Shown here in pieces: positions 20,973-24,869 of a stretch of DNA of 40,790 nucleotides. The stretch is taken from assembly GCA_902521325.1 (NCBI GenBank), contig CABYRE010000009.1:1-40790 (forward strand). Reading direction: 5' to 3'. The position numbers and the translations under genes are program-made. The notes below the pieces were generated by a model. That model did no database searches, had not been told where the DNA came from, and saw nothing but the letters and a program-made list of their open reading frames with translations. The DNA comes from an uncultured Alphaproteobacteria bacterium (GTDB lineage: Bacteria > Pseudomonadota > Alphaproteobacteria > HIMB59 > GCA-002718135). The stretch's first letter is position 1, and the number at the start of each line of letters is the position of its first letter.

Positions 20973-21332
20973 TTATATTGATTGAATGACATCTGAAGAA
21001 TGAATAGTTACTCTTTGTTCACAATTTTTTGCAAATTCATCTAAATCATCTCTAAAATAGCTTCCATTATTTTGAGCAAGCATAAAATGATTATCTATTC
21101 CAGCCTGGTTTTCATAAATTTCTGTTAAAATAAGAGCTATTTTTCCTGTCTCGGCTCCTTCTTTAAATTCAGGTCCAATTGACCAATTTAATACTATAAG
21201 AGCCTTTTCTCCTTCTTTAGTGTGAGTTTCATTCATCCATTTAACATGATCTTCAGCTACTCGCTTTGCAACATCTGAAAGTTCAGGTTTAAAGATCCAT
21301 ATAAATTGTAGTTGTTTTTTATTTTGGTACAT
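20973..21332 (-). CDS. Unknown 119-residue soluble protein downstream of the transglutaminase gene
   Basis: A cytoplasmic-looking protein without signal or membrane segment, starting at an ATG with GAAGGA about 6 bases upstream. Its order of segments (FIWIFKPELSD, then HVKWMNETHTKEGEKAL, then ILTEIYENQAGIDNHF) suggests a small ferredoxin-like alpha/beta fold of the antibiotic-monooxygenase or EthD kind, but I cannot make a firm assignment. It starts 38 bases after the transglutaminase stop on the same strand, so it may be the fourth gene of the glutamine-riboswitch operon. Confidence 0.65.
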   Translation of the reverse strand: MYQNKKQLQFIWIFKPELSDVAKRVAEDHVKWMNETHTKEGEKALIVLNWSIGPEFKEGAETGKIALILTEIYENQAGIDNHFMLAQNNGSYFRDDLDEFAKNCEQRVTIHSSDVIQSI

Positions 21333-21370: not shown

Positions 21371-22210
21371 TTATTGTTGAGAATTATTTTCAAGTGTTTG
21401 AACATGTATATCTAAGTTTTCAATCAAATTGTTTTGCCCATTATGTCCGTAGAAAACCCCTTTTATAGGTGCAGCTTCACTTGCATCAAGGCCACAAGAT
21501 ACTCTTATATATCTTTCATCAGGGCTGCAACCATTTGTAGGATCAAAACCAACCCAGCCAAGATCATTTATAAAAAATTCTGCCCATGCATGTGTTGACT
21601 GAAATTCTGATGAATGTGAATTATTATGCATGTAACCGTTAACATATCTAGCAGGTATATTGATTGTTCTAGCAGCTGACACCATTATGTGTGCTTGATC
21701 CTGACATACACCTTTTTTTTGATTATAAGCTACCTGTGCTGTTGTTTCATTATTTGTTGAAAGAGGTTTATATTCAACTTTTTCTCTTACTAAATTCATT
21801 AAATTGTGAGAAATAAGTAGTCTTTCATCGTTGTTAAAACCACTTTTTGCTTCTAAAGCTAATTTTTTTATGTCTACATCTGGAATAGTTAAATTTGAAT
21901 TCCTTAAATAAACACAAGGATCTAATTTATCATCTGGGTTAAAATAAACCCCTTTTGTATCAAAAGTTTCTACTTTACCAAGAACAGTAAACTGAATTTT
22001 TTTTACTTTTTTTAAACTAGTAAAACTTTGTATATTATTTGCTTCTCCATCTTTATAGACTGCAGATTTTTCTGCAGAGTCATGATGAACATCCCAATCT
22101 AGAATTTTTAAACCATTATATTCAGATGGATAAAGTTTAGTTGATTGTATAAGTCCAGCTACAGGATTTTTATATTCATATTTAGTTGTATGCTCAATTA
22201 TTATTTCCAT
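21371..22210 (-). CDS. Transglutaminase-like protein of the ATP-grasp/alpha-E cluster
   Basis: A 279-residue transglutaminase-fold protein. The catalytic triad is readable: Cys169 in GVCQDQAH, His207 in STHAWAEFF and Asp223 in GFDPTNG. The N-terminal region (IIIEHTTKYEYKNPV) is the beta-rich domain normally fused in bacterial members. Such proteins are predicted peptidases or amide-bond transferases. The ATG overlaps the stop of the alpha-E gene (TAATG), completing the conserved trio ATP-grasp, alpha-E, transglutaminase. Comparative studies of amidoligases have predicted that this trio makes or processes peptide-like amides; no reaction is proven. Here the trio sits behind glutamine riboswitches, which points to nitrogen control. 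Confidence 0.9.
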   Translation of the reverse strand: MEIIIEHTTKYEYKNPVAGLIQSTKLYPSEYNGLKILDWDVHHDSAEKSAVYKDGEANNIQSFTSLKKVKKIQFTVLGKVETFDTKGVYFNPDDKLDPCVYLRNSNLTIPDVDIKKLALEAKSGFNNDERLLISHNLMNLVREKVEYKPLSTNNETTAQVAYNQKKGVCQDQAHIMVSAARTINIPARYVNGYMHNNSHSSEFQSTHAWAEFFINDLGWVGFDPTNGCSPDERYIRVSCGLDASEAAPIKGVFYGHNGQNNLIENLDIHVQTLENNSQQ

Positions 22211-23145
22211 TAATTAAAAAACTCCTTTTGAATATCAGAATCTACGCTTGAAATTTTATTAATAAATTGTGTAACAAATTCATGAAGACCAAAATTAACA
22301 ATTGACTCAATTTTCTCTTCTTGAATTTTAATATTAAGATCTTTTAAGGTATTATAAATTTTATTAACTTTCTCTGGACTACAAGTTAAATTTGTTAAGT
22401 GTTTTACAATGTTTTGTATACAAAAACTAAGTGATCTTGGGCAATCACTGTTTAGTACTAAAAAATCAGCTATCTTTGTAGAAGTAACATCACCGTCGTA
22501 TGCCCAACGAAAAGCTCTAAAAGATGATAAAGATCTAAGGAGTATACTCCACTGCATATTATCAATATTACCTCCGATATATTGAGGTTTAGGTAGTAAA
22601 ACAAAATATTTAACATCTAATAATCTTGCAGAATTATCTGCCCTTTCAACAAATAATCCTAAATAAAGAAAGTTATAACCATCGTTTCTTAATAAAGAAC
22701 TTAATGAACCTCTAAATAAATTTACTTGTTCGATAGTCCATTCAGTTAAATTAGGAAGATCTGATGCATTAAAATTATTATTTTTTAATTTTATAATTTC
22801 TTGATAAGTTTTGTTAATAGCTAGCCAAGATTCAGGTGTGAATGAAGTTCTTACAACTAAAGCATTACTTCTTGCATTAAGAATACAATTATAAACAGAT
22901 GATGGATTATCCTCATCGAAAAATAAATAATCTTCAACTTTTTTTTGTTCAATAATATTATATTTATTTTTATATCCTTGTATTGCACCTGCAGCAGCTA
23001 AAACGGATTCCCATTCATTATTATAACCATTTGGATTAGGAAATAATGACATTCTGTAACCTACATCTAAGAGTCTTGCATTTGTCTCAGCTCTCTCCAT
23101 ATATCTACTAATCCAATAGAGATACTCAGCTGTTCTACTTAACAT
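22210..23145 (-). CDS. Alpha-E domain protein (DUF403)
   Basis: A 311-residue all-helical alpha-E protein. The opening MLSRTAEYLYWISRYMERAETNARLLDV is diagnostic, and the motif recurs internally as LGLFVERADNSARLLDVKYF near residue 175. These conserved Arg/Glu helices define the family, whose function is unknown but which always travels with the circularly permuted ATP-grasp ligase and the transglutaminase. The gene starts 6 bases after the ATP-grasp stop and overlaps the transglutaminase start, so the three are probably made in similar amounts. Loss of either repeat motif would be notable; both are intact. Confidence 0.92.
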   Translation of the reverse strand: MLSRTAEYLYWISRYMERAETNARLLDVGYRMSLFPNPNGYNNEWESVLAAAGAIQGYKNKYNIIEQKKVEDYLFFDEDNPSSVYNCILNARSNALVVRTSFTPESWLAINKTYQEIIKLKNNNFNASDLPNLTEWTIEQVNLFRGSLSSLLRNDGYNFLYLGLFVERADNSARLLDVKYFVLLPKPQYIGGNIDNMQWSILLRSLSSFRAFRWAYDGDVTSTKIADFLVLNSDCPRSLSFCIQNIVKHLTNLTCSPEKVNKIYNTLKDLNIKIQEEKIESIVNFGLHEFVTQFINKISSVDSDIQKEFFN

Positions 23146-23151
23146 CGAAAC

Positions 23152-24558
23152 TCATTCCGCTAAAACCCATGTATCTTTGACTCCACCACCTTGACTTGAA
23201 TTAACAACGAAAGATCCCTCGTTCATTGCAACTCTTGTTAATCCTCCAGAACTTAATTGTGCATTTTCTCCCATTAAACAAAAAGGTCTCAAATCAACTC
23301 TTCTTCCTTCAACTTGATTTTTTATCAAAGTCGGAGAGAATGATAGATCTAAGAGAGGTTGAGCAATATACCCCCGAGGATTTGCGGAAAGTTTTCTTCT
23401 AAATTCTTCAATTGAGGATTTAGAGGATTTTGGACCTATTAGCATCCCATATCCTCCAGAGCCATCAACTTCTTTTACAACAAGATCAGATAGGTTTTCT
23501 AATACATAGTTAAGATCATCATCCTTGTCACAACTCCATGTCTGAACATTCTCTAATATTGGTTGTTCTCCTAAATAAAATTTTATCATTTCTGGAACAT
23601 AAACATAAATTGCTTTGTCATCTGCGATACCTGCACCCGGAGCTGAACAAATATTAACTCCTCCAGTTCTATACACATCCATAATTCCAGGTATTCCAAT
23701 TACTGAATTTGGGTTGAAACAAAGAGGGTCTAAAAAATCATCATCTATCCTTCTATATACAACATCTACTTTTTTAGGACCATCTACAGTCTTCATGTAT
23801 AGAAATTCTCCCTCAACAAACAAATCAGTAGACTCTACCATTTCAATACCCATTTGATCGGATAGAAAACTATGTTCATAATAAGCACTATTCAATGGGC
23901 CAGGCGTAAGAAGAACGCATACTGGCTCTGAAGTGTTGCATTTTATTGGAGCTAAACTTATTAAAGTTTGAAGTAATCTAGTTGGATAATCATCAATAGG
24001 TGTAACTCGATTTGTATGAAATAAATCTGGAAACATTCTCATCATTATTTCTCTATTTTCTAACATGTATGATACACCACTAGGTGTTCTACAATTATCT
24101 TCTAGTACAAAATACTCATTATGATTTGTTCTGACTAAATCAATACCTACTATTGGACTATAAATTGATCTAGGTGGTGTAAAACCAAACATTGAAACTT
24201 CATAAGATTTTTTTTTAAAAATTAACTCTTTAGGTATGATATTAGCTTTTATTATTTCTCCTTGATTATAAATATCTGCCAAAAAAGCATTTAAAGCTTT
24301 AGTCCTTTGAATTACTCCCTTTTCTAATTTAGACCATTCACTAAAAGTAAAAATTCTTGGAATTAAATCAAACGGTATTATTCTCTCTCTTGCCGTTTCG
24401 CTATTAGTTGAGAATGTTATTCCTATATTTCTAAAATGAGTCTCTGCTTCAGCGTTTTTTTCATTAATCACTTTAGCAGTCATTTTTTCTAACCATTCAT
24501 TTATATTATTATAGTGATTTCTGATTAGACTCTCAGATTGATACATTTCATTAAACAT
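23152..24558 (-). CDS. Circularly permuted ATP-grasp type 2 protein (DUF404/DUF407)
   Basis: About 468 residues. This is a predicted ATP-dependent carboxylate-amine ligase of the circularly permuted ATP-grasp group. Landmarks are FNEMYQSESLIRNHYNNINEWL at the start, RIIPFDLIPRIF near 60, GIDLVRTNHNEYFVLEDNCRTPSGVSYMLENR near 138-170, YRRIDDDFLDP near 268, VVKEVDGSGGYGMLIGP near 360 and ARE/DLRPF plus SSGGLTRVAM near the end. I chose the ATG at 24558; a GTG at 24567 is also in frame. Neither has a Shine-Dalgarno. The start is 2 bases after the stop of a 17-codon upstream ORF, so translation may be coupled. It is the first structural gene behind the tandem glutamine aptamers. Confidence 0.92.
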   Translation of the reverse strand: MFNEMYQSESLIRNHYNNINEWLEKMTAKVINEKNAEAETHFRNIGITFSTNSETARERIIPFDLIPRIFTFSEWSKLEKGVIQRTKALNAFLADIYNQGEIIKANIIPKELIFKKKSYEVSMFGFTPPRSIYSPIVGIDLVRTNHNEYFVLEDNCRTPSGVSYMLENREIMMRMFPDLFHTNRVTPIDDYPTRLLQTLISLAPIKCNTSEPVCVLLTPGPLNSAYYEHSFLSDQMGIEMVESTDLFVEGEFLYMKTVDGPKKVDVVYRRIDDDFLDPLCFNPNSVIGIPGIMDVYRTGGVNICSAPGAGIADDKAIYVYVPEMIKFYLGEQPILENVQTWSCDKDDDLNYVLENLSDLVVKEVDGSGGYGMLIGPKSSKSSIEEFRRKLSANPRGYIAQPLLDLSFSPTLIKNQVEGRRVDLRPFCLMGENAQLSSGGLTRVAMNEGSFVVNSSQGGGVKDTWVLAE

Positions 24559-24560
24559 AA

Positions 24561-24614
24561 TTAGCACGATGAAATGAATGAAGTATTTATAAATCCAAAC
24601 TTAATACCTATCAT
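24561..24614 (-). CDS. 17-residue leader ORF upstream of the ATP-grasp gene
   Basis: The ATG at 24612-24614 opens 17 codons (MIGIKFGFINTSFISSC) that stop at 24561-24563, two bases before the ATP-grasp ATG. It is preceded by AAGGA (24626-24630), 11 bases upstream, the only Shine-Dalgarno-like sequence in this leader. It lies in the loop of the hairpin at 24619-24642. The ATP-grasp gene itself lacks one, so the leader ORF may pass ribosomes on by termination-reinitiation. There is no evidence beyond geometry, and the long spacing is a weakness. Confidence 0.4.
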   Translation of the reverse strand: MIGIKFGFINTSFISSC

Positions 24615-24618
24615 ATTA

Positions 24619-24642
24619 ATAACAGTCCTTTCAATCTGTTAT
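24619..24642 (-). promoter_or_regulatory. Shine-Dalgarno hairpin, candidate riboswitch expression platform
   Basis: On the minus strand ATAACAG and CTGTTAT form a 7-bp stem with a 10-base loop that contains AAGGA. The segment AACAGATTGAA (minus strand of 24630-24640) is also perfectly complementary over 11 bases to TTCAATCTGTT in the proximal aptamer (minus strand of 24715-24725). The two pairings exclude each other and also exclude P1 and P2 of that aptamer. This is the geometry expected of a translational switch. Confidence 0.6.
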
Positions 24643-24676: not shown

Positions 24677-24729
24677 GCGTTCCTTCAGCTTTAGCTTACT
24701 TCCGATCTGTTAAAAACAGATTGAACGAT
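24677..24729 (-). promoter_or_regulatory. Glutamine riboswitch aptamer (glnA motif), proximal copy
   Basis: Read on the minus strand: ATCGTTCA, a P2 hairpin ATCTGTT-TTT-AACAGAT, CGGAAGTA, a P3 hairpin AGC-TAAA-GCT, then GAAGGAACGC. The closing stem P1 is CGTTC/GAACG. This three-way junction with conserved CGGAAGUA and GAAGGAACGC matches the glnA RNA, a glutamine-binding riboswitch known from cyanobacteria and marine metagenomes. Comparison with the distal copy shows a completely different P2 that still pairs perfectly and compensatory change in P3. It lies about 120 bases upstream of the ATP-grasp start. Confidence 0.9.
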
Positions 24730-24743
24730 TTAATAACTTGCAT

Positions 24744-24796
24744 GCGTTCCTTCAACTTTCGTCTACTTCCGTTTTGAATTATTCAAAATGAACGAT
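24744..24796 (-). promoter_or_regulatory. Glutamine riboswitch aptamer (glnA motif), distal copy
   Basis: On the minus strand: ATCGTTCA, P2 hairpin TTTTGAA-TAA-TTCAAAA, CGGAAGTA, P3 hairpin GAC-GAAA-GTT, then GAAGGAACGC, with the same P1 (CGTTC/GAACG) as the proximal copy. A 14-base linker (24730-24743) separates the two aptamers. Tandem copies of this class have been described and are expected to sharpen the glutamine response. All junction bases shared by both copies are intact, so both should be able to fold. Confidence 0.9.
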
Positions 24797-24850: not shown

Positions 24851-24869
24851 ATATGCAAAAAATGCATAT
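24851..24869. terminator. 7-bp hairpin between pcs and the riboswitch leader
   Basis: ATATGCA-AAAAA-TGCATAT is a perfect 7-bp inverted repeat 25 bases beyond the pcs stop. On the minus strand the loop is U5 but no U-run follows the stem, so it is a poor intrinsic terminator. It may still separate the pcs transcript from the riboswitch operon. The 24797-24893 stretch must also hold the operon's promoter, but I could not assign a convincing -35/-10. Confidence 0.3.

Follow-up and report, generated by a model that had tools for sequence, protein, structure and literature searches.

A tandem type-1 glutamine riboswitch precedes an operon for a circularly permuted ATP-grasp protein, an alpha-E protein and a transglutaminase-like protein in the stretch of alphaproteobacterial DNA analysed here (40,790 bases, hereafter the window), and we consider it fairly likely that glutamine acts through this leader to repress what would be a nitrogen-response peptide-ligase operon. 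Each aptamer would bind L-glutamine, as is known for the class. When glutamine is plentiful, the aptamers would fold and the translation of the three proteins would be held down; when glutamine falls, that is, when nitrogen is short, the leader would refold and the operon would be made. Ligand binding, the OFF direction, translational coupling and strand exchange are what we infer here, and the last of these has a candidate in a second family, f10. The features of the window are listed in Table 1.

Table 1. Features of the riboswitch leader and of the operon in the window.
Feature	Position	Strand	Details
Palindrome TATGCA-N5-TGCATA	24852-24868		far edge ~73 nt upstream of aptamer 1
Aptamer 1 (5' one), glutamine riboswitch RF01739	24741-24796	-	64.8 bits, E 3e-12, model 1-53
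Linker CATGC-AA-GTTAT, predicted 5' strand of helix P0	24733-24744	-	pattern in 65/65 distinct tandem leaders
Aptamer 2 (3' one), glutamine riboswitch RF01739	24674-24729	-	65.9 bits, E 1.4e-12, model 1-53
Post-aptamer element ATAGC-TAA-GCATG, predicted 3' strand of P0	24647-24659	-	in 65/65 tandem leaders
Hairpin ATAACAG/CTGTTAT	24619-24642	-	loop holds Shine-Dalgarno-like GAAAGG, 24627-24632
Short upstream ORF, 17 codons, MIGIKFGFINTSFISSC	24561-24614	-	stop just 5' of ATP-grasp ATG
Circularly permuted ATP-grasp	23152-24567	-	PF14403 511.8 bits, PF04174 465 bits (CP_ATPgrasp_1/2); PDB 3n6x E 1.1e-175
Alpha-E protein	22210-23145	-	PF04168 277.3 bits
Transglutaminase-like protein	21371-22210	-	PF01841 80.4 bits (Transglut_core), PF08379 44.6 bits (Bact_transglu_N)
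119-aa protein, next in line after transglutaminase	20973-21332	-	no known family

The search of the whole window with cmscan against Rfam 15 gave only two above-threshold matches, a head-to-tail pair belonging to the glutamine riboswitch family RF01739. Both matches cover the full length of the model, and their scores are nearly twice the RF01739 gathering cut-off of 35 bits, which bears out the assignment to the glnA-type class that an earlier note had made from the letters of the sequence, together with the covariance-model check it had proposed. The two minus-strand units were described there as 53 bases long, and the matches span 56 nt on a 53-position model, a trivial gap. The junction motifs (ATCGTTCA, CGGAAGTA and GAAGGAACGC) and the stem strands quoted in that note are all present in the window sequence: P2 is formed by ATCTGTT/AACAGAT in one aptamer and TTTTGAA/TTCAAAA in the other, and P3 by AGC/GCT and GAC/GTT, the latter including one G-T pair.

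The covariation analysis was performed on 123 distinct aptamers picked by pattern, with the junctions used to anchor the pairs. P2 pairs 1-6 were canonical in 84-98% of the aptamers compared with means of 47-73% for shuffled partners, P2 pair 7 in 69% compared with 48%, and P3 pairs 1-3 in 90-100% compared with 73-82%, the shuffles being a rough control as the aptamer sequences are related. In the same set, P3 pair 4 was no better than shuffled, and P1 gave no covariation signal, its pairs 3-5 being invariant and its pairs 1-2 varying on one side only. The junction motifs were demanded by the pattern, so their invariance among the 123 aptamers is not independent. Compensatory change is present in P2 and P3, and the leaders of homologues keep both the pairing and the junctions, in line with the riboswitch claim. 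A chance match to RF01739 is ruled out by the two high covariance scores together with the covariation of P2 and P3. This RNA is a textbook example of the RF01739 class, whose tandem form and link with nitrogen were already known.

The Pfam matches of the downstream ORFs agree with the ATP-grasp/alpha-E/transglutaminase operon that had been read there from the sequence. The ATP-grasp ORF opens at a GTG (24567), and the conserved ATG at 24558 is more likely to be the true start; 3n6x was the sole solved structure matched by this protein. In the translation of the transglutaminase-like protein, read by eye, Cys is found in GVCQD, His in THAWAE and Asp in FDPTNG, stretches that correspond to the usual motif. 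The 119-aa protein had zero Pfam matches even at E 5; a similar 120-aa ORF occupies, by eye, the equivalent place at the operon locus of genome G078 (L146), and the protein is possibly part of the operon. No member of the Anbu/proteasome family was found among the ORFs scanned around the operon. The ATP-grasp protein itself is widespread: of 240 genomes sampled from the class, 82 gave a match at E 1e-60.

For the analysis of close relatives, the best 80 of 580 loci from a protein search of named genome contigs were kept. Fifty of them (L034-L083) encode an ATP-grasp protein that is 85-99% identical, and all are titled uncultured Alphaproteobacteria except L043 (Pelagibacteraceae). Two aptamers lie ~110-250 nt before the ATP-grasp gene in 47 of these 50 loci, and the pair is kept in 47/47 close relatives with enough upstream DNA among the best 80 of 580 loci. 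Of the other three, L046 and L065 have one aptamer, their contigs beginning 211 or 190 nt upstream, and the contig of L047 begins inside the ATP-grasp gene, as does that of L084 (99% identical). The remaining 29 loci are SAR11 (L085-L113, 73-77% identical, titled Pelagibacteraceae or Pelagibacterales); by pattern, none of these 29, among the best 80 of 580, carries an aptamer, L088 and L110 having little upstream DNA, and Rfam gave no match in the 12 of the 29 that were searched. Within the family of the window's genome, f1, the ATP-grasp gene was found in 57 of 110 genomes, many of them incomplete, and all 57 belong to genus g1.

The window's genome (1.09 Mb in 42 contigs, 56.6% complete) carries four aptamers, which form two pairs, and the second pair is located between glnB (PF00543) and glnA (PF00120). 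RF01739 was detected in 106 of the 110 f1 genomes, the window's own counted, with up to eight matches each. The eight aptamers of G078 (96% complete) form four pairs: one before the ATP-grasp operon, one in the glnB-glnA interval (L147) and one ahead of each of two ammonium transporters (L148; PF00909). Moreover, a single aptamer precedes a further ammonium transporter in G105, G106 and G002, where the transporter was identified via Pfam at L153 and via sequence similarity at L156 and L162. Because pairs stand before glnA and the ammonium transporters in the same family, the operon belongs to the same glutamine-controlled nitrogen regulon as glnA and amtB.

The two ammonium transporter genes lie ~2 kb apart, each with its own tandem riboswitch and with an ORF of 124-130 aa between them (L148 2735-4890, L149 410-2568, L150 minus strand). 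Terminator-like hairpins and U runs were seen by eye after the aptamers in some ammonium transporter leaders (L148-L150).

The GlnD domain PF08335, which also occurs in GlnE, was found in none of ten f1 genomes checked (G000, G078, G037, G088, G049, G002, G103, G106, G108 and G109), nine of them at least 90% complete, and it was found in all three genomes of the sister family f2 and in three of five f10 genomes. Several of the ten f1 genomes were seen to carry glnB. The three f2 genomes have no riboswitch, and two of them encode a distant ATP-grasp protein (50% identity). That f1 has lost the protein sensor agrees with sensing by RNA. A clean replacement of GlnD by the riboswitch was rejected, as G109 is without both and f10 keeps the domain in the three genomes mentioned. 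The search for sigma54 activators returned a ~450-aa protein at E 1e-16 to 1e-23 in five g1 genomes, in G103, G108 and G109 and in the window's genome, matches that are far weaker than the best ones of f10 (E ~1e-70).

Two wider samples, both run under stricter filters, showed how the riboswitch is distributed: RF01739 was found in six of 385 genomes of the class-wide sample, two from f1 and four from f10, and among 398 genomes of the phylum-wide sample in the window's own genome only. Family f10, which is alphaproteobacterial but only distantly related, has 27 RF01739 matches in 23 of 32 genomes, and the same 23 genomes carry the ATP-grasp gene. In each of them one match, 23 of the 27 altogether, lies directly before that gene, with 4-51 nt from GAAGGAAC to the aligned start. 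Judged by its placement, the glutamine riboswitch of f10 is a nearly dedicated regulator of the ATP-grasp gene. The alpha-E and transglutaminase genes follow the f10 ATP-grasp gene at L163 (by Pfam) and L165 (by eye), and at L163 glnB-glnA is found ~5 kb downstream of the aptamer, with no RF01739 match before it.

The other four matches, in two f10 genomes, showed different surroundings by eye. In G860 (5% contamination), the ORF after the L174 aptamer is small and outer-membrane-like, the next one is ammonium-transporter-like, and a glutamate-synthase-like ORF lies opposite. In G857 (4% contamination), three near-identical aptamer copies occur among phage-like ORFs (L194-L196); the aptamer precedes a 77-aa ORF with a GTG start, and a possible Shine-Dalgarno (SD) sequence lies inside a GCACC/GGTGC hairpin.

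The ~115 nt that separate aptamer 2 from the ATP-grasp ATG in the window could be read as a sign that the aptamers serve an unrelated transcript, e.g., a free small RNA, and adjoin the operon by chance. However, only a short upstream ORF lies in that interval, and the placing is the same in all the testable close relatives (47/47, from the best 80 of 580 loci) and recurs, in another architecture, in 23/23 f10 genomes with the ATP-grasp gene, which makes such a coincidence highly improbable. The aptamers are taken here as part of the leader of the operon. The earlier note had called the association unusual and a clue to the physiology of the operon; the presence of the RNA on glnA and amtB in the genus and, in f10, almost only before the ATP-grasp gene strengthens this view. 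The word unusual is relative: in g1 and f10 the association is the rule wherever the ATP-grasp gene is present.

The maximum-likelihood tree of 64 ATP-grasp proteins showed an f10 clade (100/100), a g1 clade (100/99) and a group of g1 with SAR11 (100/99), in which the SAR11 sequence L112 is placed as sister of g1 with 97/78, under the firm-support mark of the tree. As SAR11, which is without the riboswitch, groups with g1, the simplest reading of the tree suggests that the riboswitch was recruited to the operon twice, separately in g1 and f10. The leaders of g1 are tandem, with a linker and a post-aptamer element, and those of f10 contain a single aptamer. One ancestral riboswitch-operon unit that f1 and f10 inherited, or that moved from one family to the other, with a loss in SAR11, would be consistent with the single clade formed by f10, SAR11 and g1 (100/98) and with the weakness of the L112 branch, the one that makes SAR11 paraphyletic to g1. 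Nevertheless, given the SAR11 counts above, it needs one loss there, or two if L112 is placed right, and the g1 leader has the linker and post-aptamer element of the genus's own glnA and amtB leaders, unlike the lone f10 aptamer close to its start; we therefore regard a common origin as rather unlikely and keep to two recruitments.

The ATP-grasp, glnA and amtB leaders of g1 have a common consensus, with the linker C(A/G)TGC-A(2-4)-GTT(A/T)(T/G) and the post-aptamer element ATA(A/G)C-TAn(1-2)-GCATG. When the two were paired, 647 of 650 pair cells were canonical, and the resulting helix, P0, is predicted to enclose aptamer 2. The two sizes of the P0 inner loop vary in step, being 4/4 in 8/8 glnA leaders and 3/3 in 9/9 amt leaders; in the 48 ATP-grasp leaders they are 2/3 in 44 and 3/3 in 4. 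The covariation sought in the strands of P0 across the 65 tandem leaders was not found: they are nearly invariant, with one-sided changes or none, and no compensatory change. Among nine folded leaders, P0 was part of the free MFE structure in five and of the structure with both P1 imposed in six. Across the 48 ATP-grasp leaders, it was present in 28 free folds, 41 P1-imposed folds and 44 P1-blocked folds; as it is seen in both of the latter states, P0 would be independent of the aptamers in the folding model.

The SD sequence of the window, held in the loop of the next hairpin, is flanked by 6-11 contiguous pairable bases (G-U allowed) in 48/48 g1 ATP-grasp leaders, and this hairpin appeared in 39 free, 42 P1-imposed and 37 P1-blocked folds. 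It is a possible part of the expression platform. The folding of the 48 leaders revealed no switch: the SD was unpaired at 0.79 with P1 imposed and 0.82 with P1 blocked, and its accessibility showed a gain above 0.2 in one leader and a loss above 0.2 in one. The closing of the SD by this hairpin was rejected, as the SD lies in the loop and is mostly unpaired in all folding states of the 48 leaders. The 5' strand of P2 of aptamer 2 can pair with the stretch before the SD, with 6-8 contiguous pairs in 40/48 leaders and 4-5 in 8/48; in the controls, the corresponding strand of aptamer 1 gave 4-5 pairs in 48/48, and one shuffle for each leader gave 3-5 pairs in 40 and 6-7 in 8. Strand exchange through such a P2 mimic in the g1 leaders, which are close relatives, is only an idea.

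A short ORF of 16-25 codons, led by an SD, is present in 45 of the 50 leaders of genus g1. Its stop has one base in common with the main ATG in 29 leaders, ends two bases short of the ATG in 11, and falls within -6 to +8 of the main start (6 nt before to 8 nt past) in the remaining 5; L048 and L080-L083 gave zero candidates under the rule used. This arrangement suggests the translational coupling of the short ORF to the ATP-grasp gene, and ribosomes of g1 would probably enter at the short ORF. Some SAR11 leaders, which have no riboswitch, also contain a short ORF preceded by an SD (MSIWQ...; e.g., at L086, L089 and L111). It is placed 59 nt upstream of the ATP-grasp start and overlaps that start, which suggests coupled translation again.

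The palindrome upstream of the aptamers is the only match in the window at one mismatch or fewer, with 0.13 expected. Of the 48 ATP-grasp leaders, 42 have it starting 73-75 nt upstream of aptamer 1 (the exceptions are L069, L074 and L080-L083), and it was found in two of nine amt leaders (L148 and L150) and in none of eight glnA leaders. It is a probable operator, and a transcription factor may act at the operon besides the riboswitch.

The folding of the f10 leaders gave a candidate for strand exchange. With P1 blocked, the CGGAAGTA stretch pairs with sequence 3' of the aptamer in 20/22 leaders, and with P1 imposed, a pyrimidine stretch covers the SD in a number of them. The mean gain in SD accessibility was 0.13, compared with 0.03 for shuffled spacers, in 17 leaders (22 of the 23 were given, of which 3 identical ones were dropped and 2 have no spacer); the gain exceeded 0.2 in 5/17 and was negative in 5/17. 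The alternative fold was more stable than 54 of 60 shuffles in just 5/17 leaders. A strand-exchange expression platform in f10 is plausible in terms of this model. At L186 and L191 (around 1500-1560), 4 nt separate GAAGGAAC from the ATP-grasp start codon, and GAAGGA of the aptamer is the only SD seen; the ribosome-binding site would here be hidden by the aptamer, in a riboswitch that has hardly any expression platform.

Repression is favoured because the aptamer would cover its own ribosome-binding site at L186 and L191, and because of the CGGAAGTA pairing of f10 leaders with P1 blocked. It is weakened as an explanation because the SD stays largely open in every folding state of the 48 g1 leaders, because the SD effect in f10 is modest and because P0 shows no compensatory change. 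In an ON switch, glutamine would raise expression and the operon would store or use surplus amide nitrogen. The post-aptamer element of two glnA leaders (L002 and L147) folds onto the start-codon region when P1 is blocked, which agrees with such a switch; however, the regulon includes glnA and amtB, genes expected to be shut by glutamine, and the SD lies inside the aptamer at L186 and L191. The Burkholderia operon is, moreover, activated through NtrC (passages of PMC5491218). The main argument against the OFF direction is that the cyanobacterial type-1 and type-2 switches tested turn genes ON with glutamine (passages of PMC6316151). Taking these points together, we consider activation by glutamine unlikely, and repression remains the preferred reading.

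A wider reading, to which we give about even weight, is that in f1 glutamine sensing moved from GlnD/GlnE to RNA, with a tandem regulon and P0 over glnA, the ammonium transporters and the operon; that f10 made its own recruitment almost only for the operon, one genus having the SD inside the aptamer; and that the operon would be core to nitrogen starvation across lineages, whatever the regulator. A glutamine sensor on this operon, probably recruited twice independently, shows what the cell measures before making these proteins and ties little-understood peptide-making genes of a streamlined marine bacterium to nitrogen supply. It also points to RNA control of a nitrogen regulon in genomes where no GlnD/GlnE domain is detectable, and it offers hosts for riboswitches whose association with GS, PII and Amt genes a review knew from environmental DNA alone (passages of PMC6316151). 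What appears new is the target operon, its hosts and a recruitment that probably occurred twice.

Among the matches listed from open-access full text, none links the riboswitch with the operon, and within that scope the target operon and the hosts appear new; supplements of the primary glutamine-aptamer and amidoligase papers may list such contexts. The main text of a paper on nitrogen stress in S. meliloti (PMC3596328) does not mention transglutaminase, DUF403, DUF404 or alpha-E. A table of genes that change in a Burkholderia cenocepacia ntrC mutant lists the DUF404/DUF407 and DUF403 genes with values of -8.2 and -9.4 (part of PMC5491218), and Anbu rises in Pseudomonas putida under nitrogen limitation (part of PMC5666114). 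The operon is known together with Anbu (parts of PMC5666114 and PMC6376114), and PMC6376114 describes the hypotheses on its role as lacking experimental confirmation. In marine metagenomes, the domains of the operon show a correlation with those of urea metabolism (part of PMC3597751).

The window aptamers have the junctions and stems of the type-1 class, or glnA RNA. That class was described in marine DNA as well as in cyanobacteria, with nitrogen genes (PII, GS, GOGAT and Amt) as its targets and, sometimes, with tandem copies (passages of PMC2864571). Its published targets, in the passages cited, are PII, GS, GOGAT, Amt and PMT1479, whereas the target in the window is the ATP-grasp operon. 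A review restricts glutamine riboswitches to cyanobacteria, with the GS, PII and Amt contexts coming from environmental sequences (passages of PMC6316151), whereas the host of the window is an alphaproteobacterium. The downstream-peptide RNA (type 2, RF01704) has the same ligand and a related fold, and a short ORF follows the window aptamers too; however, RF01704 was unmatched in the window, and the short ORF there precedes a large, probably coupled ORF. Phage Melnitz and its relatives, phages of streamlined marine bacteria, carry the same RNA class, but the Melnitz riboswitch is phage-borne and tmRNA-linked (passages of PMC9004378), and that of the window is tied to the ATP-grasp operon. The Anbu operon encodes the same three proteins, in the order given in the passages of PMC6376114 and PMC5666114; it contains Anbu, whereas the window operon has none among the neighbouring ORFs scanned and a 119-aa protein instead. 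Finally, the window operon is preceded by a riboswitch, whereas its Burkholderia counterpart uses NtrC (passages of PMC5491218).
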